A stretch of DNA of 46,667 bases, taken from NCBI RefSeq assembly GCF_012932145.1, contig NZ_MWOK01000012.1, positions 1 to 46,667 of the forward strand. Direction: 5' to 3'. Positions 9,167 to 34,653 of the stretch are shown in pieces (positions within the stretch are counted from its first letter, which is position 1; each line of letters starts with the position of its first letter). The translations under genes and the position numbers were made by a program. The notes beneath the pieces were generated by a model that searched no databases, had not been told where the DNA came from, and saw only the letters and a program-made list of their open reading frames with translations. Origin of the DNA: Acidovorax sp. SRB_14 (GTDB lineage: Bacteria > Pseudomonadota > Gammaproteobacteria > Burkholderiales > Burkholderiaceae_C).

Positions 9167-9240
9167 GGTCGTCGGGCGGCAGACGCCATGATGGCGCGGC
9201 AAGCTGAGCGCGGGCTTGCATGCGGCCTAGGGGTAAACCA

Positions 9241-17962: not shown

Positions 17963-18062
17963 CCCCCTGAGGCGCTTCGCGCCTTCCCCCTGAAAGGGGG
18001 ACGCCGCCAGTGCGGCGGGGCGGCCCTTGCACGGCGGCCCTGGGCTGGGCCGCGCCAGGCTC
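17962..18062 (+). repeat. GC-rich multi-hairpin intergenic repeat
   Basis: Three successive small hairpins (GGCGCTTCGCGCC; CCCCCTGAAAGGGGG; GCCGCCAGTGCGGC) are followed by GGCGGCCCTGGGCTGGGCC. I recognise this type of element as common between genes in Comamonadaceae genomes. It fills most of the 114-bp gap before the acyl-CoA synthetase gene. Confidence 0.6.
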
Positions 18063-18076
18063 GAAGGCCACACGCT

Positions 18077-20194
18077 ATGGACAACTCAACCGACGTAACT
18101 GCCATGCTAGACCTCCTTACTTCCGCCCTCAATCCGCGCTCGGTCGCCATCATTGGCGCCTCGGACAACATCCACAAGATCGGCGGGCGCCCGATCTACT
18201 ACATGCAGCGCCATGGCTACCAGGGCGCCGTCTACCCGATCAACCCCACGCGAGAAGAGATCCAGGGCCACAAGAGCTACGCCTCGCTCGCGGCCCTGCC
18301 CGAGGTGCCGGACCTCGCGCTGGTGGTCGTGGGCGGCGACAAGACGGTGGCGGCCGTCGAGGAATGCGCGGCGCGCGGTGTCAAGTCGGCCGTGGTGATC
18401 GCCTCGGGCTTTGGCGAGACCGGCCCCGAGGGCCTCGAGCAGCAGCGCCACATGGTGGCGAAGGCGCGCGCTGCGGGCATGCGGCTCTACGGCCCCAACA
18501 CCCAGGGCCTCGCCAACTTCGGCACCGGCGCCATCGCGGGGTTTTCGACCATGTTCATCGAGGTGCCGCCCATGGACGGCCCCATCGGCATCGTGAGCCA
18601 GAGCGGCGGCATGAGCGCCATGGCCTACGGCCTGCTGCGCGGGCGGGGCCTGGGCGTGCGCCATGTGCATGCCACGGGCAACGAGGCCGACGTGACCGTG
18701 GGCGAGCTGGCGCTGGCCGTGGCGCACGACCCCGACGTGCGGCTGCTGCTGCTGTACCTCGAAAGCATCGCCCACCCCGAGATGCTGGCGGCCGCGGCCG
18801 CCCATGCGCGCGCACGCGACCTGCCCATCATTGCGATCAAGGCCGGGCGTTCGGCCGGCGGGCAGAAGGCGGCGTCGTCGCACACCGGCTCGCTGGCCAA
18901 CGAGGACCGCACCGTGGATGCGTTCTTCCGCCACCACGGCATCTGGCGCGTGCGCGACCCGCACGAGCAGGCACGTGCGGCGCAGGCCTACCTCAAGGGC
19001 TGGCGTCCCGAGGGCCGCCGGCTGGTGGTCATCAGCAATTCCGGCGCCAGCTGCGTGATGGGGGCGGACGCGGCGGACGACGAAGGCCTGCCGCTGGCCG
19101 AGCTGTCGCCCGAAACCCAGCGCAACGTGGCCGCCCAGCTGCCCGGGTTTGCCACGGCCAGCAACCCCATCGACATTACCGCCGCGCTGCTGAGCGACAG
19201 TGGCCTGTTCGGCAAGGTGCTGCCCGCCGTGGCGCAGGACCCGGCGGCCGACCTGTTCTTCCTCAACATCCCGGTGGCGGGCGCGGGCTACGACGTGCAG
19301 GCCTTTGCGCGCGATGCCGCGGCGTTCGAGGCCGCCACCGGCAAACCCGTGGCCGTGGCCGCGTGGCAGGAAAGCGTGGCCGAGCCGTTCCGCGCGCAGG
19401 GGATTGCCACTTTCCCGAACGAAGGCGAGGCAGTCGGTGTGTTGGCCCAGGTGGCCAAACACACGGAACTGATGCGCCGCGCCCGCGTTGCTTGGCCGGC
19501 CCTGCCGGACGTGCAATTGCCGCCGGGCCAAGGCGGCGGCTTCCTCAACGAGGTCGACAGCCTGGCGCTGCTGGCGCAGCAGGGCGTGCCCACCGTGCCG
19601 CTGCGGCTGGTGCGCAGCGCCCAGGAGGCGCGCGCGGCGTTCAATGCCATCGGCGCGCCGGTGGTGGTCAAGGCCTGCTCGCCCGAGGTGCCGCACAAGT
19701 CCGAACACGGGCTGGTGGCACTGAACGTGGCCAGCGCCGACGAGGCCGCTGCGCTGTTCGAGCGCTTTTGGCAGAAGATGGGCGACATGGGCGTGGCGCG
19801 CGACGGCGTGATCGTGGCGGCCATGCGGCGCGGGCGGCACGAGTTCATGATCGGCGCGCGGCAGGACCCGGTCTTCGGTCCGGTGGTGGTGGTGGGCGAC
19901 GGCGGTAAGAACGTCGAGGCGATGAAGGACTGCGCCGTGCTGCTGCCGCCCTTCAGCGCACACGAGGTGGCGCAGGCGCTGCGCACGCTGCGCATCGCGC
20001 CGCTGCTGGAAGGGGTGCGTGGCGACCCGCCGCTGGACATTGCGGCGCTGTCGGCCATGGCCGTCACCATCGGCCAGGTGATCGCCGGCGCGCGCGGCTC
20101 GATTGCGTCGCTGGACCTCAACCCCGTGCTGGTGGGGGCCGCCGGCGAGGGCGCCATCGTGGTGGACGCGCTGGTGGAGCGGGCCGGCGCCTGA
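18077..20194 (+). CDS. Acyl-CoA synthetase, NDP-forming (acetate-CoA ligase family)
   Basis: A 705-residue single-chain ligase that makes an acyl-CoA from a carboxylate, CoA and NTP through a phospho-His enzyme. The N-terminal CoA-binding Rossmann domain starts NPRSVAIIGASDN; the succinyl-CoA-ligase-like domain carries GIVSQSGGMSAMAY and the loop SSHTGSLANED with the phosphorylatable His; an ATP-grasp domain (from about residue 490) has VVVKACSPEVPHKSEHGLV. ATG at 18077 has GAAGG upstream; an ATG nine codons later is possible. It is the last gene of the IclR unit and probably activates the growth substrate. Confidence 0.93.
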   Translation: MDNSTDVTAMLDLLTSALNPRSVAIIGASDNIHKIGGRPIYYMQRHGYQGAVYPINPTREEIQGHKSYASLAALPEVPDLALVVVGGDKTVAAVEECAARGVKSAVVIASGFGETGPEGLEQQRHMVAKARAAGMRLYGPNTQGLANFGTGAIAGFSTMFIEVPPMDGPIGIVSQSGGMSAMAYGLLRGRGLGVRHVHATGNEADVTVGELALAVAHDPDVRLLLLYLESIAHPEMLAAAAAHARARDLPIIAIKAGRSAGGQKAASSHTGSLANEDRTVDAFFRHHGIWRVRDPHEQARAAQAYLKGWRPEGRRLVVISNSGASCVMGADAADDEGLPLAELSPETQRNVAAQLPGFATASNPIDITAALLSDSGLFGKVLPAVAQDPAADLFFLNIPVAGAGYDVQAFARDAAAFEAATGKPVAVAAWQESVAEPFRAQGIATFPNEGEAVGVLAQVAKHTELMRRARVAWPALPDVQLPPGQGGGFLNEVDSLALLAQQGVPTVPLRLVRSAQEARAAFNAIGAPVVVKACSPEVPHKSEHGLVALNVASADEAAALFERFWQKMGDMGVARDGVIVAAMRRGRHEFMIGARQDPVFGPVVVVGDGGKNVEAMKDCAVLLPPFSAHEVAQALRTLRIAPLLEGVRGDPPLDIAALSAMAVTIGQVIAGARGSIASLDLNPVLVGAAGEGAIVVDALVERAGA

Positions 20195-20235
20195 GCGGGC
20201 CGCGAGCGGCGCGCTGGCGTCGCCTAAAGGCGGAT

Positions 20236-20352
20236 GCTGCCGCTTTGCTCTCAAAAATAGAGCTGCATGCGCTGGCCTGTAGCTGGGTTCGATGAGTTTC
20301 AATGTGGAAACCCAATGGCGGTAGGCGCTACCAGCTTCTCTTTCGATAGCAA
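20236..20352. repeat. Double copy of the dispersed hairpin repeat, copy 6
   Basis: TCTCAAAAATAGAGCTGC at the left and CGCTACCAGCTTCTCTTTCG at the right resemble the ends of two repeat copies placed head to head. They lie in the gap between the convergent synthetase and gntR genes. The long inverted arrangement could stop transcription from both sides. Confidence 0.5.
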
Positions 20353-20418
20353 AGCCGCCGGCCGCGGCGGGCGTTGTGCGCCGGCAGAGCGCTCGCCCGC
20401 GCAGCCACGCCGGCAGGG

Positions 20419-21126
20419 TCAGCCTGCCTCGGCGCCGGTGGCCGCTTGGCGGCGCAGGATCTCGTCCCGCACATTGCGCACGTGCGCGGTGCCTGCGGCA
20501 TCGGCCCCGGCTTCGTCGCCACCCGCCACCGCCTTTGCGATGGTGCGGTAGTCGGCCACACGGATCTTCTGCAGCGCCGGCAGCTTGTGCTGCACGTACA
20601 CCACCGGCATGTGGATCGAGGGGAACAGCCGGCGCAGCTCGCGGCTGCCCGCGAGCTCCAGCAGCGCCCGGTAGAACTCGCGCCGGGCGCGGGCAAAGGC
20701 CTCGGCGTCCTGGGCTTTGTCGGCGGCCCGCAGCGACGCCAGGGCTTTCTTGAGCGCCAGCGGTGCACGCCCGCTGCGCACGCCCTGCGCGGCCGTTCGT
20801 GCCAGCAGCCCGGTCATGCGCTCGGCCACGTCCAGCACGTGCAGGGTTTCCTGTGGCGTGAGCGCCTTGATGACCGCGCCCTTGTGGCGGAACACATCGA
20901 CGATGCCGTCGGCCGCGAGCCGCTGCACGGCCTCGCGCACGGAGTTGCGCCCCACGCCGAACTGCGCCGCGAGATCGGCCTCCACCAGCCGCTGGCCGGG
21001 CACGAAGCGCTGCAGCTCCAGGCCATGCACGATGCCGAAAAACACGGCATCGGAGGCGCTGAACGCCGCCTCTTGCGCGGGCTCGGGAACGCCTTCGGCA
21101 GCGCGGTCGGAAGAGGGATTGGTCAC
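20419..21126 (-). CDS. GntR family regulator (FCD/FadR subfamily)
   Basis: About 235 residues. The N-terminal winged helix contains LVEADLAAQFGVGRNSVREA and the C-terminal all-helical FCD domain contains REFYRALLELAGSRELRRLF, with His residues suited to metal binding in SIHMPVVYVQH. The start is uncertain: GTG at 21126 is used here, and GTG at 21135 is equally possible, with no strong ribosome-binding site for either. It is divergent from the acyl-CoA dehydrogenase operon, which it probably represses. Confidence 0.88.
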   Translation of the reverse strand: MTNPSSDRAAEGVPEPAQEAAFSASDAVFFGIVHGLELQRFVPGQRLVEADLAAQFGVGRNSVREAVQRLAADGIVDVFRHKGAVIKALTPQETLHVLDVAERMTGLLARTAAQGVRSGRAPLALKKALASLRAADKAQDAEAFARARREFYRALLELAGSRELRRLFPSIHMPVVYVQHKLPALQKIRVADYRTIAKAVAGGDEAGADAAGTAHVRNVRDEILRRQAATGAEAG

Positions 21127-21230
21127 GGGGCTCACGCGGGGGTGTGAAAAGGCATGCGCGCCGAGTGTACACAGCGCCTGGGCTCCATCAATGCCGTGAA
21201 CGAGGAATGTGCGACACATTGCAAAACAAA

Positions 21231-21243
21231 ATTGTCCTACAAT
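21231..21243. promoter_or_regulatory. Putative GntR/FCD operator
   Basis: ATTGTCCTACAAT is a perfect 5-bp inverted repeat (ATTGT-N3-ACAAT) in the 163-bp divergent region. TTGT-N3-ACAA palindromes are typical for FCD-type GntR regulators. TACAAT inside it could also be a -10 element for the rightward operon, so binding would block the promoter. Confidence 0.65.
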
Positions 21244-21289
21244 CTGGTGGAACGAAAAGCCTTGCACCACTGTTTCAGGAGACGCCCCG

Positions 21290-22480
21290 ATGGATTTTGA
21301 ACTGAGCGCCGAGCTGTGCGCGTTGCGCGACCGCACCCGTGAATTCATCGCCGAGCAGGTGATCCCGCTCGAAAACGACGAACGCCAGTCTTCCCACGGC
21401 CCGAGCGAGGCGCTGCGCCGCGAGCTGGTCTCCCGCGCCAAGGCCGCAGGCCTGCTCACGCCCCACGCCTCGCGCGAGATGGGGGGCCTGGGCCTGTCGC
21501 ACGTCGCCAAGGCCGTGGTGTTCGAGGAGGCCGGCTATTCGTGGCTCGGCCCGACGGCGCTCAACATCCACGCGCCCGATGAGGGCAACATCCACCTCAT
21601 GGAAGAAGTGGCCACGCCCGCGCAGAAGGAACGCTGGCTGCGGCCGCAGGTGGCGGGCGACATCCGCTCGTGCTTTGCCATGACCGAGCCCGCGCCCGGC
21701 GCGGGCGCCGACCCGTCCATGCTGGCCACCACCGCCGTGCGCGACGGCGGCGACTACGTGATCAGCGGCACCAAGTGGTTCATCACCGGCGCCGAAGGGG
21801 CCGACTACTGCATCGTGATGGCGCGCATGGAGGACGGCTCGGCGACCATGTTCCTCTCGGACATGGACCGCCCCGGCATCGTGCTCGAGCGCAACATGGA
21901 CGCGATGGACGCCTGCTTCACGGGCGGCCACGGCGTGCTGCGCTTCGACAACCTGCGCGTGCCCGCCGCCGACGTGCTCGGCGAGATCGGCAAGGGCTTC
22001 CGCTACGCCCAGGTGCGCCTGGCGCCCGCGCGCCTGACGCACTGCATGCGCTGGCTCGGCCAGGCGCGCCGCGCGCACGATGCGGCGCTCGACTACACGC
22101 GCCGGCGCACCGCCTTCGGCAAGCCGCTGGCCGAGCACGAGGGCGTGGGCTTCATGCTGGCCGACAACGACATGGACCTGCACACCGCGCGCCTGCACAT
22201 CTGGCACACCGCCTGGCTGCTGGACCAGGGCGAGAAGTGCAACTTCGAGTCGAGCCGCGCCAAGGTCGTGTGCTCGGAGGCGCAGTGGCGCGTGGTCGAC
22301 CGCAGCGTGCAGATGCTCGGCGGCCAGGGTGTCACGGGCGAGTCGCCGGTGATGCGCATCTTCACCGACATGCGCGCCTTCCGCATCTACGACGGCCCGA
22401 GCGAAGTGCACCGCTGGAGCATGGCGCGCAAGCTGGTCCACCAAGCCGAAAAGGCCGCAGCGGCGCGGGTGCCGGCATGA
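21290..22480 (+). CDS. Acyl-CoA dehydrogenase family protein (ACAD10/11-like)
   Basis: A 396-residue FAD enzyme that makes the 2,3-double bond of an acyl-CoA. Motifs in order are the substrate and FAD loop CFAMTEPAPGAGADPS, the strand IKGTKWFITGAEGA-like block, FGKPLAEHEGVGFMLAD in the flavin region, and QMLGGQGVTGESPVMRIFTD followed by YDGPSEVHRW. The latter form is typical of the ACAD10/11 clade, whose genes often travel with an APH-like phosphotransferase gene, as here. AGGAG precedes the ATG. Confidence 0.95.
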   Translation: MDFELSAELCALRDRTREFIAEQVIPLENDERQSSHGPSEALRRELVSRAKAAGLLTPHASREMGGLGLSHVAKAVVFEEAGYSWLGPTALNIHAPDEGNIHLMEEVATPAQKERWLRPQVAGDIRSCFAMTEPAPGAGADPSMLATTAVRDGGDYVISGTKWFITGAEGADYCIVMARMEDGSATMFLSDMDRPGIVLERNMDAMDACFTGGHGVLRFDNLRVPAADVLGEIGKGFRYAQVRLAPARLTHCMRWLGQARRAHDAALDYTRRRTAFGKPLAEHEGVGFMLADNDMDLHTARLHIWHTAWLLDQGEKCNFESSRAKVVCSEAQWRVVDRSVQMLGGQGVTGESPVMRIFTDMRAFRIYDGPSEVHRWSMARKLVHQAEKAAAARVPA

Positions 22481-23250
22481 GCGCCGCCATCGACCGTTTC
22501 CGCCTCGACGGGCGCGTGGTGCTGGTCACCGGGGCGTCGAGCGGGCTGGGCACGCATTTCGCGCAGCTGCTGGCAGATGCGGGTGCGCGCGTGGCCGTAG
22601 CCGCGCGCCGTGCGGACAAACTGCAGGCCGTGGTCGATGCCATCACCCAAGGCGGCGGCCAGGCGCGGGCGCTGTCGCTCGACGTGACCAGCGCGGCCAG
22701 CGTGCGCGCCTGCTTTGACGAACTCGCCAGCTGGGGCGCGCCCGATGTGGTCATCAACAACGCCGGCGTCACCGTGACGCGGCCGTTGCTCGAGCAGACC
22801 GAAGAAGATTTCGACCACGTGCTGGACACCAACCTCAAGGGCTGCTGGCTGGTGGCCACCGAGGCTGCGCGGCGCATGGTGGCGGCGGGGCAGGGTGGCA
22901 GCATCGTCAATGTCGCCTCGATCCTGGGCAAGCGCGTGGCCGGCGGCGTGGCGCCCTATGCGATCTCCAAGGCCGGCGTGGTGCAGGCCACCAAGGCCAT
23001 GGCGCTGGAGCTGGCGCGCCACCGCATCCGCGTGAACGCGCTGCTGCCGGGCTATGTGGTGACCGACCTGAACCGCGACTTTCTCACCAGCGAGGCGGGC
23101 GAGAAGCTGCGCAGCCGCATCCCGAGCCGGCGCTTTGGCGAAATGGCCGACCTCGACGGGCCGCTGCTGCTGCTGGCGTCCGACGCGGGCGCCGCGATGT
23201 CGGGCGCCACGGTGGCGGTAGACGGTGCGCACCTGGTGAGCTCGCTGTGA
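22477..23250 (+). CDS. Short-chain dehydrogenase/reductase
   Basis: A 257-residue classical SDR. The NAD(P)-binding motif TGASSGLG is at residues 18-25, NNAG follows after VVI, and the active site shows the Ser region VNVASILGK with the Tyr-Lys pair in YAISKAG. The start overlaps the preceding stop (ATGA) and its own stop overlaps the next start (GTGA), so the three genes are translationally coupled. It probably oxidises the 3-hydroxyacyl intermediate of the same pathway (inference). Confidence 0.94.
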   Translation: MSAAIDRFRLDGRVVLVTGASSGLGTHFAQLLADAGARVAVAARRADKLQAVVDAITQGGGQARALSLDVTSAASVRACFDELASWGAPDVVINNAGVTVTRPLLEQTEEDFDHVLDTNLKGCWLVATEAARRMVAAGQGGSIVNVASILGKRVAGGVAPYAISKAGVVQATKAMALELARHRIRVNALLPGYVVTDLNRDFLTSEAGEKLRSRIPSRRFGEMADLDGPLLLLASDAGAAMSGATVAVDGAHLVSSL

Positions 23251-24284
23251 GCACCGCCGCCACCGCCACCACCCTGCCGCTCGCGCCGCTGCAGGACTAC
23301 CTGCGCGCGCAGGGCTTGGCGGGCGCCGAGGCCATCCAGGTCGCGCCCCTGTCGGGCGGGCAGTCCAATCCCACCTTCCGCATCGCGGCGGGCGCGCGCG
23401 AGTACGTGCTGCGCAAGAAACCGGCCGGCCAGCTGGCCCCTTCAGCCCACGCCATTGACCGCGAATACCGCGTCATGCGCGCGCTGCAGGACAGCGATGT
23501 GCCGGTGCCGCGCATGCTGGCCTATTGCGAGGACGCGTCGATCGTCGGCACGCCGTTCTACGTGATGGATTTCCTGCAGGGCCGCGTGTTCATGGACCCG
23601 GCGCTGCCCGGCAGCACGCCGGCCGAGCGCGGCGCCGTGTACCGCGAGATGGGCCGCGTGATGGCCGCGCTGCACAGCGTGGACCATGTGGCCGTGGGCC
23701 TGGGCGACTACGGCCGCACCGGCCGTTATGTGGAGCGCCAGATCGACCGCTGGTCGCGCCAGTGCCGCGCGCTGTCGGTACCGCTGGACGATTCCATGCA
23801 CCGCCTGATGGAGTGGCTGCCCGCGCAGGTGCCGCCGGGCGACGAGACCACGCTGGTGCACGGCGACTACCGCATCGACAACCTGGTGTTCCATCCCACC
23901 GAGCCGCGCGTGATCGGCGTGCTCGACTGGGAGCTGTCCACGCTGGGCCATCCGCTGGCCGACCTGGCCTACCACTGCATGGCCTGGAACGTGCCGCCCG
24001 CGCTGTGGCGCGGCATGGGCGGGCTGGACCTGCCCGCGCTGGGCATTCCCACGGAGGCCGAGTACCTGGCCGACTATCGCGCGGCCACGGGGCGCGATGC
24101 GCAGGGGCAGTGGTCGTTCTACATGGCCTACAACCTGTTTCGCATGGCCGCCATCCTCTACGGCATTGCACAGCGCGCCGCCGATGGCAGTGCGGCGTCG
24201 GCCGACGCCGAAGAAACCGGGCGCAAGGCCGGGCCGCTGGCGCGGCTGGGCTGGGAATGGGCGCAGCGGCATACGGCGGGCTGA
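23247..24284 (+). CDS. APH/ACAD10-type phosphotransferase family protein
   Basis: A 345-residue aminoglycoside-phosphotransferase-fold protein. The catalytic loop LVHGDYRIDNLVF and the metal motif GVLDWELSTLGHPLADLAY are intact; the N-terminal nucleotide strand region is GGQSNPTFRI with VLRKKP. It is not expected to confer drug resistance. In mammalian ACAD10/11 such a domain is fused to the dehydrogenase and phosphorylates 4-hydroxyacyl-CoAs, and in bacteria the two are neighbouring genes. The GTG start overlaps the SDR stop by 4 bp. Confidence 0.92.
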   Translation: MSTAATATTLPLAPLQDYLRAQGLAGAEAIQVAPLSGGQSNPTFRIAAGAREYVLRKKPAGQLAPSAHAIDREYRVMRALQDSDVPVPRMLAYCEDASIVGTPFYVMDFLQGRVFMDPALPGSTPAERGAVYREMGRVMAALHSVDHVAVGLGDYGRTGRYVERQIDRWSRQCRALSVPLDDSMHRLMEWLPAQVPPGDETTLVHGDYRIDNLVFHPTEPRVIGVLDWELSTLGHPLADLAYHCMAWNVPPALWRGMGGLDLPALGIPTEAEYLADYRAATGRDAQGQWSFYMAYNLFRMAAILYGIAQRAADGSAASADAEETGRKAGPLARLGWEWAQRHTAG

Positions 24285-24944
24285 ACGGCAGGCAGGCCGC
24301 TGGCATGCCCGGCGGCTGCTCCTGCCGGCGCGGGACCACCGCGCTGAAGCGCCACCTGGGCTCCCTCTGTCTGGCAACACCGTGCGCGCGGCCCGATGGC
24401 GGCGGCCATCTGCCTCGCATCTCCGCCGCACACCCTGGCCTGCGCTTGGATAGCCACGGAACGCCCAGAAGGCGAAGTCGAATGGGTGTAGGGGGGCGCC
24501 CAAGCCGCGTTACCGTGTCGGAGACCGCCACGCCGGCTACGGCACACGCTACATGTGGATGTCTGAAGGCCCCCAACCTGACCGAACGGCGGCGGGACTA
24601 TTCCCTACGCCAGCTTCATCAAAACGCCGCGCCCTTGATGTGGCGCGGCGCGCCGGTGGGGTGAATTCGGCGTTTCGACAGGCTCAGCCGCCGTCACTGT
24701 AGGGTGAGCCAGCTGGGCAAGGGTGCCGGTCGACTTTTTGCGGTAGTGGCAAATATCAGTTGGTCACAAGTCTGGCAGACGCTTAGCATGAAGTTTTAGG
24801 ATGTCCGGTGCTTCATCCGTCATGTTTTAGGTTCGCCTAACAACATGTAGCGCTTATGATTTGCCGGTGTAATGCCTGTTTATCCGACCTCTGCGGGGCG
24901 TTCTGCAGTCGTTTAATTTCAATTGAAGCTCATAAGGAATAAAA
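24285..24944. other. Gene-poor junction before the integron cassettes
   Basis: About 660 bp with no credible gene. The first about 420 bp have the GC-rich character of the host; TTCGACAGGCTCAG near 24674 resembles a short repeat common in related genomes. From about 24720 the DNA becomes AT-rich, like the cassette that follows. GCCTAAC at 24835-24841 looks like an isolated attC half-site, but I could not find partner boxes. The promoter for the first cassette gene presumably lies here. Confidence 0.45.
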
Positions 24945-25286
24945 ATGGAGAATCTTGAGCTTCTGAAAAAACTTCAAGAACTTGGTGTCGCATTCTGTGT
25001 TTCCGTGCCAAGCCAATGGGGGCAAGAAACTCATATTGCGAAGCCAGAAGAGCTATTGGCTTTGATTGAAGACCCTACAGTCGTTTTTGCAGCGCACTAT
25101 GGTGTTTCGAAGTCTGAATATTTGGCTTGGGCAAATGAAGATTTTTCTGTTCACTGCTCCGGAAAAACCAGCAAGGGAAAGCAATGCAAAAATATTGTGC
25201 CAGGCGGTTCTAACGTAAGCCCGAGTACATGGGTTGAACTTCAAGGTGAGTATTGCACTGTCCATTCTGTGGGAAGAGAAATCTAA
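24945..25286 (+). CDS. Integron cassette 1: unknown protein with Cys/His cluster
   Basis: A 113-residue protein that I do not recognise. It is AT-rich with codon use unlike the surrounding genes (many AAA, GAA, TTG and ATT). The N-terminal half is mixed helical with no signal peptide or membrane segment. The C-terminal part has Cys71 (CSGKTSKGKQCKN, with Cys81), Cys104 and His107 (YCTVH), a C-x9-C-x22-C-x2-H pattern that could bind a zinc ion. AAGGA precedes the ATG by about 8 nt. It ends 14 bp before a complete attC, which is the normal place for a cassette gene. Confidence 0.8.
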   Translation: MENLELLKKLQELGVAFCVSVPSQWGQETHIAKPEELLALIEDPTVVFAAHYGVSKSEYLAWANEDFSVHCSGKTSKGKQCKNIVPGGSNVSPSTWVELQGEYCTVHSVGREI

Positions 25287-25300
25287 TGGCACATTTTGGT

Positions 25301-25359
25301 TCTAACCCGGCGCTCAAGCCGACCCGCGTACAGCGGTCGGCTTAGCTTTTTCGTTAGAC
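25301..25359 (+). other. attC: Integron attC recombination site (complete)
   Basis: The four attC boxes can be read. R'' is TCTAAC (25301-25306). L'' is GCTCAAGCC. L' is GGCTTAGC. R' is GTTAGAC (25353-25359). AAGCCGACC (25316-25324) and GGTCGGCTT (25335-25343) pair perfectly, and L'' has one extra C relative to L', the extrahelical base that orients strand choice in attC sites. Length is about 59 bp, within the known range. Crossover is expected after G25353. Confidence 0.9.
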
Positions 25360-25370
25360 GCTTTCAGAAA

Positions 25371-25859
25371 ATGGACGAAGCCCGCTTTCCCGAGATTGTT
25401 CGCTCCATCTATGGGGCAGTGGCAGAGCTTGAGGCCATGTTCCCCGGACGCAAGTTCACACCGGACGGGCACATGGTCGGTAGCCTCGGGGAGGCATATG
25501 CAGCCCACCACTACGGAATCATGCTGCACGGGGCGTCCTTTGAATGCCATGACGGCACGTGCAATGGCAAGAACGTTCAAGTGAAAGCCACGCAAGGCGA
25601 TCGAGTGGCGGTCAGTGCCGAGCCGGAGCAACTTCTTGTGCTACGGCTACACCGCGATGGCTCGTTTACCGAGGTCTACAACGGCCTGGGATCGCGCGTC
25701 TGGTCGTTGGTGGCACACAAGCCGCGTCCGAAGAACGGCCAGTACCAGGTATCTGTCGCTGCACTCGGGCGGCTAATGGCAGCGGTACCCGAGCAAGAGC
25801 GACTTGACCACAAAGCGTCTAACCCTTCCTTCAAGCGGACGCCTGACGGCGCCGCTTAA
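25371..25859 (+). CDS. Integron cassette 2: unknown protein, possible PD-(D/E)xK fold
   Basis: A 162-residue protein starting at an ATG 11 bp after the attC. A block GSLGEAYAAHHYGI with Glu41, then HDG with Asp61, then VQVKATQ with Gln70-x-Lys72, resembles the E...D...QxK spacing of restriction-endonuclease-like folds; this is inference and activity is unproven. No membrane segment is present. The last residues, SNPSFKRTPDGAA, are translated from the downstream attC, an ending I have seen on many cassette proteins. GC content is higher than in cassette 1. Confidence 0.78.
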   Translation: MDEARFPEIVRSIYGAVAELEAMFPGRKFTPDGHMVGSLGEAYAAHHYGIMLHGASFECHDGTCNGKNVQVKATQGDRVAVSAEPEQLLVLRLHRDGSFTEVYNGLGSRVWSLVAHKPRPKNGQYQVSVAALGRLMAAVPEQERLDHKASNPSFKRTPDGAA

Positions 25860-25860
25860 G
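25817..25860 (+). other. attC: Truncated attC site (right half missing)
   Basis: GTCTAAC (25817-25823, R''), CTTCAAGCGG (L'') and CCGCTTAAG (25852-25860, L') are present, again with a single extra C in L''. The R' box GTTAGRC expected within the next about 10 bp is absent (TGCCGGACTTCG instead). The site therefore cannot recombine normally. The cassette 2 stop codon lies within L'. Confidence 0.8.
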
Positions 25861-26065
25861 TGCCGGACTTCGCCTTGGGGCGCTCTGACAGTTCAAGCCT
25901 TTTTGGATTCTAGCTGTCGCATCACGGACGATCGTCTATGTTCCGCGTATTCACGCTGAGCTTTCGTATCCCCGGCCGCGATGCTGTGATCCGGTAAATG
26001 GCCGGCGGAAGCACCCCGCAAACCGCGAACGACGAATGGGATTCGCTGGTCCCATCCGCGTTTCG

Positions 26066-27061
26066 TCACTCCGCCTCAATCCCCGCAGCCGCAATCAGCT
26101 CCCGCCACTTGCCGATCTCGCTGCGCGTGAACTGATCGAGCGCAGTACCGGAGCTTCCTTCGATCGCAAACCCGAGGTCGGCAAACCGACTGACCACGGC
26201 GGGCGTGCGCGTGAATTGCATGAATTGCTGGTTCAGCACCTCCAGGATGGGTGCAGGCGTCCCGGCAGGCGCGTAGACGGCCATCCAGTAGCTCAGATCA
26301 AACCCGGCCATGCCCGGCGCGCTTCGCAGACTGAGGACACCGGGCAACAGGGGATGCGGTTGCGCGGTGGTAACGGCCAGTGCCTTGAGCTTGCCGCTGC
26401 GCAACTGCGGCAGCGCGGACTGGATGTCGATGAAGAGCGTGGAGACTTGCCCGCCAATCACGTCGGTCATGGCAGCCGGGCCGCTCTTGTACGGGACATG
26501 GATGAGTTCATGCTTGGTTTTCAGCGCCAGCGTGGCGCCAGAGACGATGCCGGAGCCGTTGGCGCTGGCATAGCTCGCCTTGCCAGGATTCGCTTTGGCG
26601 TAAGCGAGAAATTCCGCGAGGTTGCCAAAAGGCGCATCGGTGCGCGTGGCCAGCACGAACACGCCCTTGCCGATCATGGACACGGGCGCGAAATCTTTTT
26701 GCGGGTCGTACGGCAGTGACTTCATCAAACTCAGGTTGGCGGCCTGGGTGGTGTTGGTTGTGACCAGCAGCGTGTAGCCGTCGGCCGGGGCCTTGGCGAC
26801 CGCGCTGGTGCCAATGGCGCCGTTGGCACCGGCCCGGTTGTCGACCACCACCGGTTGCTTCAACGCGTCGGACATCTGTTGCGCCGCCAGCCGTGCAATT
26901 GTGTCGGTCGCGGTGCCCGCCGCGTACGGAACGATGATGCGGATCGGCTTGTTCGGGTACGTCTGAGCATGCGCAGGCAAGGCGCCGAACGTTGCAGCGG
27001 CCACGGGGGCAAGCAGACATGCCAGTGCGGTGCGGCGGGTGAGGGGCAGGGTTTTGGTCAT
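26066..27061 (-). CDS. Bug/TctC family periplasmic substrate-binding protein
   Basis: A 331-residue secreted protein. The signal peptide includes a twin-Arg pair early (PLTRRTALACLLAP) and ends near AHAQTYP. The mature start YPNKPIRIIVPYAAGTATDT is the Bug signature; VVDNRAGANGAIGT and KAPADGYTLLVTTNT complete the ligand site. Its length equals that of the Bug protein at 16967 but the sequence differs throughout. It is the last gene of the leftward operon, 88 bp after the cycloisomerase homologue, with AGGAG before the ATG. No transporter membrane genes are present. Confidence 0.93.
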   Translation of the reverse strand: MTKTLPLTRRTALACLLAPVAAATFGALPAHAQTYPNKPIRIIVPYAAGTATDTIARLAAQQMSDALKQPVVVDNRAGANGAIGTSAVAKAPADGYTLLVTTNTTQAANLSLMKSLPYDPQKDFAPVSMIGKGVFVLATRTDAPFGNLAEFLAYAKANPGKASYASANGSGIVSGATLALKTKHELIHVPYKSGPAAMTDVIGGQVSTLFIDIQSALPQLRSGKLKALAVTTAQPHPLLPGVLSLRSAPGMAGFDLSYWMAVYAPAGTPAPILEVLNQQFMQFTRTPAVVSRFADLGFAIEGSSGTALDQFTRSEIGKWRELIAAAGIEAE

Positions 27062-27149
27062 GGTGTCTCCTTGGATGGAATAAGTTTGGATTGCGCGCGC
27101 TGCGCACCGGCTCTGCGGCCGTTTGAAAAACAAGTGATTTCGCGGAGCG

Positions 27150-28265
27150 TCAGCCGGCAGGGCGCCGGTGGTGGTAGGCCAGCCGCTCGGGGTCGACGGT
27201 CGCTCCGAACCCGGGGCCAAGCGGCACCACCAAAGCGAAGTCTTCGTAGCGCAACTGGCTGGTGGCGATGTCATCCACCAGCAGTTGCGGGCCAAACAGC
27301 TGGCAGCCCCAATGCAGGTCAGGCAGCGTGGAATACAGCTGCGCGCAGGCCGAGGTGCCGATGGCGCCTTCAATCATCGTGCCGCCAAAAATGGCCAGGC
27401 CGCCGGCTGCGGCGATGTGCGCGACCTGCGCCGTGCGCAGCAAGCCGCCGTGTTTGGTGACCTTGATGGACAGCGCATCGCAGGCATGGGTGCTGGCGTA
27501 GGCCATGGCTTCCTGGGGCGTGGCCACGGCTTCGTCTGCCATCACGGTGATGGGGCTCGTGCCAGTAAGGCGGCGCATGGCGTCGATGCTGGCGGCGTGC
27601 ACCGGCTGCTCGACCACCGCGATGCCACCTGCGTGCAGTGCCGGGATCGCCCAGCGTGCCGTGGCCTCGTCCCAGGCCTGGTTGACGTCGACCCGCACCG
27701 TCGCCGCCTCGGGAAGTGCGTTGCGAATCGCGGTGGCGCGCTGCACGCCCTCCAGCGGGTCGCCCGTGCCGATCTTGACGAGGAAATGCCGGTGTGTGCG
27801 TTCGCCCAGCTTCTGGCGGGCTTCCTCGATGTCCTGCTGCGTGTCACTGGTGGCCAGCACCCAGAGCATTTCCAGCCGGTCGCGCACCGTGCCGCCGAAC
27901 AGCGCTGCGCTGGACACCCCCAGGGCACGCGCCGCAATGTCCACGCAGGCCATTTCCAACGCCGCCTTGCAGGGCAGGTTGCCCTTGATGGCGCGGTCCA
28001 TCAGGGCCAGCACATGCCACAGCCGGCGCGGATCCTGGCCTACCAGCGCGGGCGCCAGCACCTCGTCGATCACGGCCTTGGCGGCGCCGGCACTCATCTC
28101 GTTGTAGCCGGCGATGATGGACAGCTCGCCCAGCCCGGTCACGCCCTCGTCCGTGTGTATCTGCGCGACCACCAGCGTGTGGCCCGCCATGGTCGTCATG
28201 GCCAAGCGGTGCGCGCGGCGCAGCCGCAGGCCGACGATGGTGCTGGTGATGCGCTCGATCTTCAT
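27150..28265 (-). CDS. Enolase-superfamily enzyme, muconate-cycloisomerase-like
   Basis: A 371-residue homologue of muconate lactonising enzyme. Metal ligands are Asp193 (VDVNQAWDE), Glu219 (VVEQPVH) and Asp244 (MADEA), and Lys268 (LSIKVTKHGG) is the second-face base. These are offset by exactly 5 from the usual CatB numbering (198, 224, 249, 273). The Lys-x-Lys motif (167/169) appears as Leu162-Val163-Lys164, so the first Lys is replaced. FGGTMIEGAIGTSA is typical of the family. The start overlaps the preceding stop (ATGA). It could be a cycloisomerase or a related racemase or dehydratase. Confidence 0.88.
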   Translation of the reverse strand: MKIERITSTIVGLRLRRAHRLAMTTMAGHTLVVAQIHTDEGVTGLGELSIIAGYNEMSAGAAKAVIDEVLAPALVGQDPRRLWHVLALMDRAIKGNLPCKAALEMACVDIAARALGVSSAALFGGTVRDRLEMLWVLATSDTQQDIEEARQKLGERTHRHFLVKIGTGDPLEGVQRATAIRNALPEAATVRVDVNQAWDEATARWAIPALHAGGIAVVEQPVHAASIDAMRRLTGTSPITVMADEAVATPQEAMAYASTHACDALSIKVTKHGGLLRTAQVAHIAAAGGLAIFGGTMIEGAIGTSACAQLYSTLPDLHWGCQLFGPQLLVDDIATSQLRYEDFALVVPLGPGFGATVDPERLAYHHRRPAG

Positions 28266-29383
28266 GCGCGCGCCTGCGCGGCGCTGGGCAGCAGCCCGCG
28301 CTCCTGCAACTGGCCAAACCATTTGCGGAACATGTCCTCGGTGTCCATGCAGGCGTGAAAACCGGCCTGGCGGATCTTCACCGAGCTCATGATCACGGCC
28401 GGCAGCGGGCCTTCCTTGCCATGGTTCATCTGGAAGTCGGCATACGTCGCACCCTGGCCGATGAAGGCCGCCAGCTCGCGCGGCGCGGCCAGCTGGTATT
28501 TGTCCACCAGGCGCTCCCAGGCGGATTGCTGCCGGTCCAGCGCGGCGGCCAGGGACTGCGGCTCGGGCTCGCCCACCGGCATGCCGAGCACATCGGCAAT
28601 GGTCGGCCAGACGTTTTGCCAGACGAACACATCGCCGTTTTCCAGGTTGAAGGTTTCGTTGCGCGCGTTGGGCGCCAGCGCGGCCCAGGCGCAGGCCTGG
28701 GCGATCAGGTCGGCGTCGATGGCCTGGTTCACGCGTGGCGGACCGCCCGGGTAGGCCAGCGGCAGGCCCTGCTCGTGGCGCAGCCAGGCGTACACGCCGA
28801 TGGCCGGAATCGGGTTCATGTTGCTGCCCATGGCGTCGCCGAACACGATGCGCGGCCGCATGATGGTGAAGTGCCAGGCGCCCGAGCGGGCCTGGCGCTC
28901 GCGCAGGAAGTCCTCCTGCAGCCAGTAGAAGTTCTCGTGGTTGTCGCGCGGCCAGCGCTCGCGCGCGGGCACGGCAATCTGCGGGTGGATGTGCACGCCG
29001 TAGGCCTTGCCGCCCTGCATGATGGTCACGTGGCGCAGCGCGCCGCCGGGGCGGTCCAGCGGCTCGATGACGTTGCGCAGCATCTGCAGGTTGGTGTCCA
29101 TCTGCTCCTGGTCGCGCCAGCCGCCAACCAGGCCGCCGGGCTTTTCGTACACGGCGGCATACACCACATGGGTGATGTCGTCGCGGCCCGCGAGAGCGGC
29201 GGCGCAGGCGGCGCCGTCTTGCAGGTCCAGCTGCAGGGCCTCGGCGCCGGGGGGCGGCGTGATCGGGCGCCGCGCCACGCCGATCGCGCTCCAGCCGGGC
29301 AGGCTGGCGAAGTGGCGCAGGCAGGCCTGGCCCACCACGCCCGTGGCGCCCACGATGAGGGCGGTTTGCTGGGGTGTCGTCAT
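28262..29383 (-). CDS. SDR family NAD(P)-dependent oxidoreductase, PRISE-like
   Basis: A 373-residue extended SDR. The cofactor motif IVGATGVVGQ is at residues 10-19. IMQGGKAYGVH carries a Lys at the place of the catalytic Lys of progesterone 5-beta-reductase/iridoid synthase-like (PRISE) enzymes, and NFYWLQEDFL and RPRIVFGDAMGSNMNPIPAI match their active-site Tyr and substrate regions. ETFNLENGDVFVWQNVWP is also characteristic. Such enzymes reduce enones. It sits 14 bp after the ABC-type binding-protein gene and overlaps the cycloisomerase homologue. Confidence 0.85.
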   Translation of the reverse strand: MTTPQQTALIVGATGVVGQACLRHFASLPGWSAIGVARRPITPPPGAEALQLDLQDGAACAAALAGRDDITHVVYAAVYEKPGGLVGGWRDQEQMDTNLQMLRNVIEPLDRPGGALRHVTIMQGGKAYGVHIHPQIAVPARERWPRDNHENFYWLQEDFLRERQARSGAWHFTIMRPRIVFGDAMGSNMNPIPAIGVYAWLRHEQGLPLAYPGGPPRVNQAIDADLIAQACAWAALAPNARNETFNLENGDVFVWQNVWPTIADVLGMPVGEPEPQSLAAALDRQQSAWERLVDKYQLAAPRELAAFIGQGATYADFQMNHGKEGPLPAVIMSSVKIRQAGFHACMDTEDMFRKWFGQLQERGLLPSAAQARA

Positions 29384-29397
29384 GGCCGCGGCGGTCC

Positions 29398-30651
29398 TTA
29401 CTTCTTGAGCATCGGGCACTTGGACTGCGCCAGCGGCAGGAAGGCCTTGTCGCCCGGCACCGTGGCGATGAGCTTGTAATAGTCCCAGGGGTACTTGGAT
29501 TCGGCCTGCGACTTCACTTCGAACAGGTACATGTCGTGCACCATGCGGCCGTCCTCGCGGATGCGGCCGTTCTTGGCAAAGAAGTCGTTGATGGGCGTCG
29601 CCTTCATCTGCGCCATGACCTTGGCCGTGTCGTCGGTCTTGGCGGCCTGCACGGCCTTGAGGTAGTGCAGGGTCGATGAGTAGGCGCCCGCCTGGCTCAT
29701 GTTGGGCATCTTCTTCATCTTCTCGAAATAGCGTTTGGACCAAGCGCGGGTTTCGGGGTTCATGTCCCAGTAGAACGCTTCGGTGAGCATCAGCCCGCCC
29801 GCCGTGCGCAGGCCGATGGCGTGCACGTCGTTGATGTACATCAGCAGCCCTGCCAGGGTCTGCTTGTTTTTGCCCTGGGTCAGGCCGAACTCGCGCGCGG
29901 CCTTGATGGTGTTCACGGTGTCGCTGCCGGCATTGGCCAGGCCGATGACCTGCGCCTTGCTGTTCTGCGCGCTGATCAGGAAGGAAGCAAAGTCCGTTGC
30001 GCCGATGGGGTGCTTGGCCGAGCCCAGCACCTTGCCCCCTTGGGCAAGCACCACCGCGCTGGCCTGCTCCTGCAGGCTGTGCCCGAAGGCGTAGTCGGCG
30101 GTGATGAAGAACCAGTCCTTGCCGCCGCGCTGCGTGATGGCGCTGGCCGTCACGTTGGCCAGGGCGTAGGTGTCGTAGACGTAGTGCACGGTGCTGGGCA
30201 TGCACAGGTCGCCCGTGAGCCGGTCGGTGCCGGGGCCGTTGAAGATGATGACCTTCTGCTTTTGCTTGGCCACTTCGAGCACGGCCAGGGCCGGGGCGGA
30301 CACGGCCACGTCCATGATGGCGTCGACCTTGCCGGTGTCGAACCATTCGCGCGCCTTGCTCGCGGCGATGTCGGCCTTGTTCTGGTGGTCCACCACCAGC
30401 AGTTCGATCTTCTTGCCCAGCACCTGGCCGCCGAAGTCGTCGATGGCCATCTGGATGGCTGCTGCGCTGCCCGGGCCGGTGATGTCGGCGAACGGGCCGT
30501 TGAGGTCCGTGAGGATGCCCAGGCGCACGACGTCGTCGGAAATCTTCACCTCCTGCGCGGTGACAGCAGTGGTGGCGGCCAGCAGGGCCAGGCTGGTGCA
30601 AAGCGCGCGGCATGCGCGCGGCAGGGGGCTGCGGTGGGGGTGGCGGTTCAT
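29398..30651 (-). CDS. Branched-chain-amino-acid-type ABC substrate-binding protein
   Basis: A 417-residue periplasmic binding protein of the LivJ/HAAT type. The signal peptide ends near AVTAQEVK. The mature chain starts VRLGILTDLNGPFADITGPGS and continues with MAIDDFGGQVLGKKIELLVVDHQNKAD, both family hallmarks; KDWFFITADYAFGHSLQ begins the second lobe. No livHMGF permease or ATPase genes are adjacent, so it must use a transporter encoded elsewhere. AGGAG precedes the ATG. Probably co-transcribed with the cyclase gene 35 bp upstream. Confidence 0.94.
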   Translation of the reverse strand: MNRHPHRSPLPRACRALCTSLALLAATTAVTAQEVKISDDVVRLGILTDLNGPFADITGPGSAAAIQMAIDDFGGQVLGKKIELLVVDHQNKADIAASKAREWFDTGKVDAIMDVAVSAPALAVLEVAKQKQKVIIFNGPGTDRLTGDLCMPSTVHYVYDTYALANVTASAITQRGGKDWFFITADYAFGHSLQEQASAVVLAQGGKVLGSAKHPIGATDFASFLISAQNSKAQVIGLANAGSDTVNTIKAAREFGLTQGKNKQTLAGLLMYINDVHAIGLRTAGGLMLTEAFYWDMNPETRAWSKRYFEKMKKMPNMSQAGAYSSTLHYLKAVQAAKTDDTAKVMAQMKATPINDFFAKNGRIREDGRMVHDMYLFEVKSQAESKYPWDYYKLIATVPGDKAFLPLAQSKCPMLKK

Positions 30652-30686
30652 GGTTGTCTCCTTGGGTCGTGTGGGGCTGGCGGGAA

Positions 30687-31775
30687 TCAGATCGTGGCGA
30701 TGGGCGTGACGGGCGAGCCCACGGCGCCGGGCAGGCGCAGCGGCGGCGCCGTGAGTAGAAAACGCGTGCGGCCCAGCGCGTGCAGCGCGTCGGCGAGTTC
30801 CTCGAGGTACCACAGCTCGCCCAGCGGCAGCCCGAGCTTGAACAGGCAGTGCTCGTGCAGCGGCAGCAGGGGGTAGGGCGTGCCGTCCGGGGGAGTGCGT
30901 GTGGGCGGGTGGCGCTCCACGGCGTAGTTGTCGGCGACCAGGGCCGCGATGCCGCTGTCGGTGATCCATTGCAGCAGCCGCGGGTCGCTGCCGTCGAGCG
31001 CGGCGCAGCTGTGGTGCAGCCGCACGGCGTCGGGCTGGCCCTGCATCGACAGCACCACGCCGGCAAAGCCCGTGCGCAGCAGCAGCATGTCGCCCGGCTC
31101 CACCGTCGCGTCGCACTGCGCCATGGCGTGCATCAGCTGGTCGTAGCCGATGTCCTGGTAACCGGTGCCGTAGACCCGGGCCAGGTCCACCAGCACGCCA
31201 CGGCCCTGCATGCCTTTCTTGGCCAGGTTCTCCACGCCCAGGGCGCGCGCCACGCTCGCGTCGGCGGGCCGGCCTGCGCAGCACACGGGGCGGTAGGGGC
31301 CGGGCGCACCCTGCGCGCCTGGCTGCGGCAAGCCATGGTCCACCGGGCCCAACACATGTTCGTGGCCGCGGTAGCCGTTGTAGTAGGTGGTGCGCAGCTG
31401 GCCGTCGCCCTCCGAGTCGAACAGCGAACCCACGTGGGCCAGCGAATCCCATTGGGTGGAGTACTGCAGCGAGAGCAGCACCTGGTCGTCGCTGATCACG
31501 TCGGTGGCACCGGGATACACATGGCCCAAGGGGAAGTTGAGGTAGGGCCGGTCGCCATTGCGCGTGGGCGACAGGCGCGGCGGATGGCGCCGTGCGTTGA
31601 GCGCGTTGCCGCCCGGGTAGTCCAGCGGCAGCGAGAGGCAAATGCTGCGCCCCTCGCGCACCTCCTGTGCGCCCTTGCGCACCTGTTCGGGGCCGATCAG
31701 GTTGGCGCGCCCGAGTTGGTCATCGGGCCCGAAGTCGCCCCAGTTCGAGCCGGGCGGGCGTTGTCTCCATCGCAT
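30687..31775 (-). CDS. Cyclase family protein (kynurenine-formamidase-like hydrolase fold)
   Basis: A 362-residue metal-dependent hydrolase of the cyclase (PF04199) family. WGDFGPDDQLGRANLI opens the domain, TQWDSLAHVGSLFD contains the metal-binding His/Asp, and GVLVDLARVYG and EPGDMLLLRTGF form the second site region. The ATG at 31775 follows GGGAG with 8-nt spacing; a GTG at 31790 is also possible. It is the first gene of the leftward operon and may hydrolyse a cyclic intermediate made in the pathway (inference). Confidence 0.88.
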   Translation of the reverse strand: MRWRQRPPGSNWGDFGPDDQLGRANLIGPEQVRKGAQEVREGRSICLSLPLDYPGGNALNARRHPPRLSPTRNGDRPYLNFPLGHVYPGATDVISDDQVLLSLQYSTQWDSLAHVGSLFDSEGDGQLRTTYYNGYRGHEHVLGPVDHGLPQPGAQGAPGPYRPVCCAGRPADASVARALGVENLAKKGMQGRGVLVDLARVYGTGYQDIGYDQLMHAMAQCDATVEPGDMLLLRTGFAGVVLSMQGQPDAVRLHHSCAALDGSDPRLLQWITDSGIAALVADNYAVERHPPTRTPPDGTPYPLLPLHEHCLFKLGLPLGELWYLEELADALHALGRTRFLLTAPPLRLPGAVGSPVTPIATI

Positions 31776-31845
31776 GCTGTTGTCTCCCACCGCTGGTGAG
31801 CGCGGATGTGGAAGCTATGGTGTTGGGCCAGGGCGCACCGCGTCA

Positions 31846-31872
31846 ATTCCTTTGGAAAAAATTTCAAGGAAT
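31846..31872. promoter_or_regulatory. Inverted repeat upstream of the cyclase operon
   Basis: ATTCCTT (31846-31852) and AAGGAAT (31866-31872) are a perfect 7-bp inverted repeat with a 13-nt A/T-rich spacer, about 70 bp before the cyclase start. A regulator site is plausible, but no regulator gene of this operon is in the window. Confidence 0.45.
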
Positions 31873-32044
31873 GAAATCGGAGCCAGGGTAAACCCGCTCG
31901 CCGGGCGGCCGCATGAGGGGGACGGCGCCCTTTAAAGCCATGGTGCGGCGCTTTGCGGCGCGGTGCCGTGGTGCGGACGGATTTCGCCAGGCAAAACCGC
32001 AAGCATCGGCGGACACTGCGGCGCCATGCCGCCGGCATGGCGGC

Positions 32045-33013
32045 TCAGCGCAGGGACAGCGTGCCTGCAAACACCGGTGCATCCACATTGCCGCCCGTGA
32101 GCGCCAGGCCCACGCACTGGCCCTGCAGCTGCGCCTTTTCCTGCAGCGCGGCGGCCAGGGCTGCGGCGCCCGCGCCTTCGGCCACGTTGTGCGTGTCGGT
32201 GTAGATCGCGCGCATGGCAGCGGCCACTTCGCCGTCGCTGACCTGCACGACGTGGTCCAGGTGCGGGATCAGGATGTCGAGCGCCTCACGGTCGGCCACG
32301 CGGCAGGCCATGCCGTCGGCCAGCACGGTGCTGACCGGGGCTTCCACGACGCGGCCCGCGGCAATCGAGTCGGCGTAGGTGGTGGCATGGCGGCTGACCA
32401 CACCGACGATGCGCACGCCGTGGCCCAGCGCGCGCTGGGCGGCGATGGCCGCGCAGGCGCCCGAACCCTGGCCGATGGGCACGTAGGCCACGGCCATCTG
32501 CGGCACGGCGCGCAGAAATTCCCACCAGTAGGTGGCCACGCCGCAGACCAGGTCGGGGTGGTAGCTCGGCACCATGTGGGCGCCGCGCTGGGCGGCCAGC
32601 TGCATGGCGTGTTCGCGCGCTTCCTGAAAGTCGTCGCCATGCTCGATGAGCGTGACGCCCAGTGCGCGCATGGCATTGTTCTTCTCGGTCGAATTGCCGC
32701 GCGGCACGACGATGGTGCAGGCCACGCCGTGGCGGCGCGCCGCCCAGCCCATGCTCTGGCCATGGTTGCCGCGCGTGGCGCTGACCACTTCGCGCGGCAG
32801 CGCGCCGCGCTGGGCGAGCCGGTCGAAATAGGTCAGGCCGCCCCGGATCTTGAACGCGCCCACCGGCGTGTGGTTCTCGTGCTTGAGCCAGCACTCGGTG
32901 CCCAGGCGCTCGCCGAGCAGGGCCCAGCGGTACTGCGGCGTGGCGGCGAAGTCGCGGTAGACGACCTGGGCGGCGGCCTCGATGTCGGCCAGGGTGGGGA
33001 GGGTGGCGTTCAT
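32045..33013 (-). CDS. Threonine/serine dehydratase-like PLP enzyme
   Basis: A 322-residue fold-type II PLP enzyme. Lys55 in VGAFKIRGG is the Schiff-base Lys, SATRGNHGQSMGWAA is the substrate Asn loop, and YVPIGQGSGACAAI is the phosphate-binding loop, with Gln in place of one Gly. It lacks the C-terminal ACT-like regulatory domain of IlvA, so it resembles catabolic threonine dehydratases or hydroxyaspartate/diaminopropionate-type lyases. It is the last gene of the putative eight-gene unit, 52 bp after the VOC gene. Confidence 0.85.
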   Translation of the reverse strand: MNATLPTLADIEAAAQVVYRDFAATPQYRWALLGERLGTECWLKHENHTPVGAFKIRGGLTYFDRLAQRGALPREVVSATRGNHGQSMGWAARRHGVACTIVVPRGNSTEKNNAMRALGVTLIEHGDDFQEAREHAMQLAAQRGAHMVPSYHPDLVCGVATYWWEFLRAVPQMAVAYVPIGQGSGACAAIAAQRALGHGVRIVGVVSRHATTYADSIAAGRVVEAPVSTVLADGMACRVADREALDILIPHLDHVVQVSDGEVAAAMRAIYTDTHNVAEGAGAAALAAALQEKAQLQGQCVGLALTGGNVDAPVFAGTLSLR

Positions 33014-33065
33014 GCGGCAGCTTTCTGGTGGTTCGTCCATTTCACCGGGACAGAGAACGTGGCAG

Positions 33066-34633: not shown

Positions 34634-34653
34634 GGCGGGCCTTGGGAGTGACG

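Follow-up and report, generated by a model that had tools for sequence, protein, structure and literature searches.

A probable decayed chromosomal integron with two remaining cassettes in Acidovorax sp. SRB_14

A short segment of the genome of Acidovorax sp. SRB_14 is very probably what is left of a decayed chromosomal integron, a bacterial platform for collecting genes, of which two cassettes remain. It lies in a stretch of 46,667 nucleotides of contig NZ_MWOK01000012.1, the whole of which was analysed and is referred to below as the window. The original prediction, made from the letters of this DNA alone, had left three options for the locus: the remnant of a deleted integron, cassettes placed at a secondary site, or a cluster of attC sites lacking an integrase (CALIN). 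That an integron stood here we conclude from a worn intI leader and an attI site of the type found in sister species, located directly upstream of the first cassette; this relic supports the first option and tells against the second.

The history that we propose is as follows. An integrase would have inserted cassettes at attI, near positions 24922/24923, through recombination of this site with the folded attC sites of circular cassettes, until at least three cassettes stood in line: one with a gene for a 113-aa protein, one with a gene of the DUF6998 family and a DUF1010 cassette. Most of intI would then have been lost by deletion, with only the start and leader of the gene left on the minus strand, and a second deletion would have fused the inner part of the second attC with the interior of the DUF1010 cassette, thereby cutting the array off (the order of the two deletions is the one we infer).

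The attC sites and the cassettes that they delimit

In order to keep the search for attC sites free of circularity, a covariance model (R1) was built from an alignment of 37 attC sites from arrays of sister genomes, with the window and the rest of its own genome left out. The structure captured by the model is genuine, with 95.8% of the cells paired and a covariation of 0.396, as compared with 0.112 in shuffled and at most 0.084 in slid versions of the alignment. In the window R1 recognizes a complete site, attC1, on the forward strand at 25300-25359 (R'' at 25300-25306, R' at 25353-25359) with 70.5 bits and an E-value of 2.5e-16. All 18 pairs of the model are standard, C25315 is the unpaired base of L'', and the site thus exhibits the pairing of R'', L'', L' and R' together with the extrahelical base in L'' that characterize attC. 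It is also the best of the five R1 matches listed for the whole genome (3.85 Mb; E 2.1e-14), 150 of the 2971 first-look candidates having been scored. The original prediction had placed a complete attC with readable boxes and the extra L'' base at 25301-25359, which is right to one base, and a covariance search of the kind that it proposed as a check, run here with R1, returned a high score. A second site, attC2 (25817-25859, forward strand), was likewise correctly described as incomplete and as ending the second gene: comparison with relatives shows that R'', L'' and L' are there and R' is absent, and the R1 match, which spans 25817-25874, scores 30.9 bits.

It could be argued that such sequences are chance hairpins or some other repeat and that the genes are ordinary, as matches to an exact attC motif are frequent in this genome, with 29 in the forward search and 32 in a reversed control. 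That motif search was useless on its own, though it did reveal a site on another contig (C39, see below). R1, on the other hand, separates true sites sharply (attC1 has the above genome-wide E-value of 2.1e-14), and attC1 is 89% identical over 64 bp to a site in an array of the sister genome G005, so that we regard an origin by chance as next to impossible. An Rfam search of the window gave nothing at the gathering level, and a tRNA search gave nothing useful at this locus.

The first cassette, with limits deduced from attI and attC1, occupies 24923-25353 on the forward strand and carries an ORF of 113 aa (24945-25286) that ends in a cluster of Cys and His residues and belongs to no recognized family, with no Pfam match over threshold. 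Its G+C content is about 0.45, versus 0.70-0.75 on the left. The gene is rare, being present in two of 399 genomes of the taxonomic family (its own included); weak relatives, with 32-42% identity, are found on 11 plasmids. Next to the relatives of this gene R1 yields at best 10.8 bits (a Shewanella plasmid, L138) and 10.4 bits (G169, L117), so there is no support for cassette 1 having been a cassette in other places. At present it could presumably move only with an integrase supplied in trans. The second cassette (25354-25859, forward strand), as delimited by the attC model and by comparison with relatives, is truncated at its 3' end and contains the DUF6998 gene (25371-25859, 162 aa) discussed in the last section. 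Neither cassette gene was matched by PADLOC at E-values up to 0.1.

Directly after the L' box of attC2 there follows a stretch of 55 bp (25860-25914, forward strand), which is 75-84% identical to stretches of integron arrays in three sister genomes (L069 and L070 in G006, L067 in G001 and L083 in G004); one of its counterparts in L069 reads as DUF1010 (Pfam 1.3e-22). Neither the R' box of attC2 nor the first part of the DUF1010 cassette is present. On our reading of the sequence, a third cassette once stood here and this scrap from its interior marks a deletion that would have had one end within attC2 and the other within the DUF1010 cassette. As a side observation, one sister array (L069:4257-8975) holds five copies of the DUF1010 stretch, which apparently contains a conserved palindromic part; our impression is that the DUF1010 frame may have arisen as a side effect of a repeat and not encode a protein.

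The attI relic and the missing integrase

As the original prediction had stated, there is no intI gene in the 46.7 kb: a profile of seven intact IntI proteins from sister genomes, run against all ORFs of at least 20 aa in the window, gave nothing at E 1e-3, and a genome-wide search with TIGR02249 gave no match on this contig at E 1e-5. Traces of such a gene are nevertheless recognizable with a profile made of eight leader-attI stretches from sister integrons, which has a single match in the window (nhmmer; 24813-24918, plus strand, 18.3 bits, E 4e-5); none of 200 simulated windows reaches this score, the highest being 8.4 bits. The match extends from the aligned intI start codon to a point next to the attI crossover, which alignment with the GTTAG of relatives puts between 24922 and 24923. 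Hence the reading direction would be leftwards for intI and rightwards for the cassettes, as it is in integrons generally. We assign the start codon and leader of the lost intI, without the integrase body, to 24813-24850 on the minus strand and the worn attI to 24840-24922 on the plus strand.

In absolute terms the match of 18.3 bits is weak, and its robustness was assessed in several ways. Against 106 loci and the window, all matches of the profile (E at most 0.01) were either copies of the window or loci that carry intI or attC arrays. When L094, the nearest of the model sequences, was removed, the leader part alone survived (24813-24847, E 0.003). In single comparisons, seven of 11 sister attI sites beat all 500 shuffles, and the remaining ones were equalled by at least one of the 500 (L066 by 18, L091 by nine, L082 and L088 by one each). 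Single pairwise matches of the leader, with scores of 31-34 versus a shuffle maximum of 34, were indecisive.

With the seven IntI proteins as tblastn queries against 24.2-26.1 kb, nothing scored better than E 1.6 and no intI codons were recognizable beyond the start; we read this as deletion of the integrase body almost from its start codon. The lost integrase was probably of the kind that we label here type A, whose leader matches the relic; attI of type B was searched for in the window and none was found at E-values up to 1. A pattern search found no cassette promoter at the locus. With respect to a complete integron, the attI expected between intI and the first cassette is there, as a worn attI with leader (E 4e-5), and a functional intI beside it is missing, since none occurs in the window and the only gene of the genome to exceed the TIGR02249 cut-off is broken.

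Integrons and their decay are usual in this genus, as attC sites were detected with R1 in 20 of its 26 genomes and TIGR02249 matches at E 1e-60 or better in 14 (the genome studied here included in both counts), with 13 genomes above the curated cut-off; attC is present in all 15 genomes with a completeness of 90% or more and a contamination of 5% or less. Sister genomes with an intact type-A intI present the order that we see in the window, i.e. intI start, leader, attI and first cassette. Moreover, three sister arrays retain attI with no intI in the locus (L066 on contig C13 of G001, L068 on C3 and L082 on C55 of G005), a state like that of the window; both G001 and G005 have intI on another contig.

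These observations bear on the second option, according to which a distant integrase inserted the cassettes at a secondary, non-attI site of the attG type and no integron ever stood here. In favour of it one could cite that no intact integron integrase turned up in the window, nor with TIGR02249 in the rest of the genome, that the cassettes are few and that the genes around the relic form an uninterrupted cluster in G028, a genome of another genus of the same family. However, cassettes at a secondary site should have no attI upstream, and here attI and the intI leader are directly upstream and in the correct orientation; loci that bear attI and lack intI are also known from the sister arrays. 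We therefore consider this option very unlikely, and retain the deleted integron as the preferred explanation.

The term CALIN fits the locus descriptively, since there are attC sites with no neighbouring integrase in the window. It is, however, borderline with respect to number: at least two attC sites are needed by the IntegronFinder 2.0 default, and R1 counts one complete and one truncated site, so that with the second truncated the locus is at or below that threshold. It also differs from a CALIN in that a recognizable attI relic remains. Parallels are found among sedentary chromosomal integrons of Xanthomonas, for which one study (PMC12444791) reports that every genome of one pathovar harbours an element lacking intI and bearing the same pair of cassettes. 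As described there, the array is short, intI is deleted or truncated and the cassettes are frozen, as in the window; our case is from another lineage, the end of the array has been cut as well and there are four relics in one genome. Likewise, another study (PMC2426708) states that nearly one third of intI genes are pseudogenes. The loss of the integrase in the window would be the same process, and a broken intI on contig C39 of this genome is such a case, but in the window the integrase is almost entirely deleted.

Surroundings of the relic and its counterparts in the genome

The left flank of the relic is the decayed 3' end of a TonB-dependent-receptor gene (24336-24661, forward strand), which corresponds to residues 569-689 of 694 and matches L071, L072 and L065 at 72-76% identity in blastn (tblastn E 1.5e-6). 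An intact copy of the receptor gene is located elsewhere in the genome (C40:124026-126077; Pfam TonB_dep_Rec_b-barrel, 3.1e-39). The stretch 24336-24726, which resembled DNA beside the intI relic of G022, was considered as an intI remnant and turned out to be the end of the receptor gene. We also considered the receptor gene as the ancestral place of the integron; the intact copy is on another contig and has a different neighbour, and the idea is kept only as a lead. As a separate observation, the same receptor 3' end adjoins parts of integrons both in the window and in G022 (L065:6482-9024, with a broken intI right after the stop codon), and in G004 it is present as two separate scraps (L074:5474-5750 and 9131-9205); this association may reflect chance or a preferred landing place.

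Comparison with relatives, suggested in the original prediction as a way to see an empty site, had a positive outcome: in G028 the two flanks lie next to each other (24268 and 28266 of the window are equivalent to L077:5700 and L077:5736, respectively), i.e. 24269-28265 of the window is absent from the syntenic locus. Along with the integron relic, the missing segment contains the receptor scrap and two unrelated genes, one for a TctC-type receptor and one for a relative of mandelate racemase/muconate lactonizing enzymes, which make up about 2.3 kb of further genes. The segment is thus extra with respect to G028, but, since the gap spans these genes as well, it does not date the arrival of the integron. 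In G035 only the left part is common, up to 24268. The flanking genes had been described as ordinary host operons, a view that needs qualification: the main blocks of the cluster around the relic (approximately 17400-35000 of the window) are 84-88% identical in DNA to L077 of G028 (78-81% in two smaller blocks), i.e. to another genus, whereas among the matches listed for 23247-27373 in the 25 other genomes of the same genus, with five candidates scored per genome, the identity is only 68-72%, to the left flanking gene. Judging from these identities, the cluster itself may have been acquired horizontally.

The same data raise the question of whether the integron decayed in place. A fragment of an integron that had partly decayed elsewhere (receptor scrap, attI and cassettes) could have moved here as a block, an account compatible with the preferred explanation in all but the place, and one that we regard as possible, although we would not call it probable. 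It would explain why both ends are cut, the receptor having lost its first approximately 570 codons and the DUF1010 cassette being reduced to 55 bp; it is also favoured by the intact receptor gene on another contig, by the broken intI and attC sites that directly follow the intact receptor gene in G022, and by the absence of the block from this place in G028. On the other hand, the genome contains the cassette block only once, and the intI of G022 resembles type B (66% identity over 61 aa, E 4e-23) more closely than type A (32-35%), whereas the leader in the window matches type A. As for G028, absence may mean loss as well as that the block was never present.

Further relics were identified in the same genome, all of type B. 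The genome-wide search for intI, also proposed in the original prediction, did find an integrase gene, but a broken one, and no intact integron integrase. TIGR02249 matches it on contig C39 at 11196-11765 with 281.5 bits (cut-off 265), covering only model positions 126-315; in comparison with the intact sister protein L092 it consists of two pieces in different frames, residues 1-46 (68% identity) and 140-332 (78%), with about 93 residues missing between them. It is part of a broken integron (L023, C39:10468-11789) with attI, one cassette, whose gene at about 10.5 kb encodes a PemK-like toxin (Pfam 9e-25), and one attC of 46 bits. A second relic (L105 and L109, C39:250329-251296) comprises an attI 68% identical to that of the first (E 7.7e-11), one cassette and an attC of 45.2 bits, with no integrase body; the gene in the cassette matches the anti-phage protein PD-T7-4 (PADLOC 4.1e-85). 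In the third (L108, C35:15067-15295) small ORFs follow an attI that shares 74% identity with the first (E 5.9e-30), and R1 found no attC there. Counting the window, the genome thus has four relics, and no intact integron integrase was found with TIGR02249. This model also matches recombinase-like sequences on contigs C4, C36 and C27 at 40-80 bits, far below 265, a level of match that is likewise given by 14 of 14 control genomes.

A predicted nuclease in the second cassette

The product of the second cassette belongs to DUF6998 (Pfam 2.7e-47), a family present in 19 of 399 genomes of the taxonomic family, its own included, and mentioned in no paper of the literature that we searched. DUF6998 relatives sit in attC arrays of four other genomes: among the 16 loci scanned with R1 (L007-L013, L022 and L119-L126, with L014-L021 and L127-L137 outside the scan), an attC beside the gene was found in four (L007, L008, L122 and L123) and was absent in 12. 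A further relative is located on a Citrobacter plasmid (L139), where R1 found no convincing attC (best 16.2 bits). With respect to the nearest relative, L007 (80% identical), synonymous differences amount to 0.734, which is near saturation, and nonsynonymous ones to 0.139, indicating that the protein sequence has been conserved by selection.

An AlphaFold2 model built with 17 sequences is confident (pLDDT 88.9, pTM 0.84). When this model was compared with PDB structures by Foldseek, the top ten matches were all chains of NhoI and Eco15I (E 3.4e-3 to 2.9e-2), and Hjc, DpnI and PvuII ranked after them. The structural match is weak, as no E-value is below 1e-3 and the top ten have TM-scores of 0.32-0.49 (by query length) and rmsd values of 7.6-11.2. 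A search with the cassette 2 profile against PDB chains gave Eco15I as the sole match at E up to 1 (E 0.075), in the active-site stretch; the single protein sequence gave matches to PDB sequences at chance level only. In the DUF6998 alignment E41, D61 and K72 are invariant and position 70 is Q or E, i.e. the residues E, D and Q-x-K (Q70-V-K72 in cassette 2) expected of a PD-(D/E)XK active site are kept, with the ten best fold matches above E 1e-3. In the work on Eco15I (PMC11347163), mutation of E49, D69, Q79 or K81 is reported to have abolished activity, and the spacing of these residues is similar to that of E41, D61, Q70 and K72. In its predicted fold the product of cassette 2 resembles NhoI and Eco15I, modification-dependent enzymes of the BisI family; it differs from them in being a member of Pfam DUF6998 that reaches Eco15I by profile only at E 0.075.

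From the modelled fold and the conserved residues, the protein is probably a DNA nuclease of the PD-QXK type, perhaps a modification-dependent restriction enzyme or the product of another restriction-like defence gene. A broader interpretation, which we offer as speculation and rate as unlikely, is that DUF6998 proteins are undescribed stand-alone BisI-like PD-QXK nucleases spread as integron cassettes, and that the relics form a fixed defence repertoire kept by selection. As part of this interpretation, and just as tentatively, the integrons of the genome could have decayed repeatedly while genes proximal to attI stayed, namely those for DUF6998, PD-T7-4 and the PemK-like toxin. If it were true, such relics would act as a defence repertoire retained after the loss of the recombination platform.

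Integron wrecks are already known and the relic in the window is mostly ordinary, being one more case of a well-described path of decay in which the integrase is gone and the cassettes remain. What the analysis adds with respect to classification is that an attI profile from sister species can distinguish a deleted integron from an orphan cluster, which a classification based on intI and attC alone does not do. The relic also leads to the question of whether the cassettes left in such wrecks are kept by selection, and the predicted DUF6998 nuclease is likewise worth following. Cassette 2 is in fact the more useful lead: it belongs to a family of unknown function that resembles modification-dependent restriction enzymes and is found repeatedly in integron arrays, which agrees with recent reports, known to us by their titles as cited in PMC12444791, that integrons store anti-phage genes.
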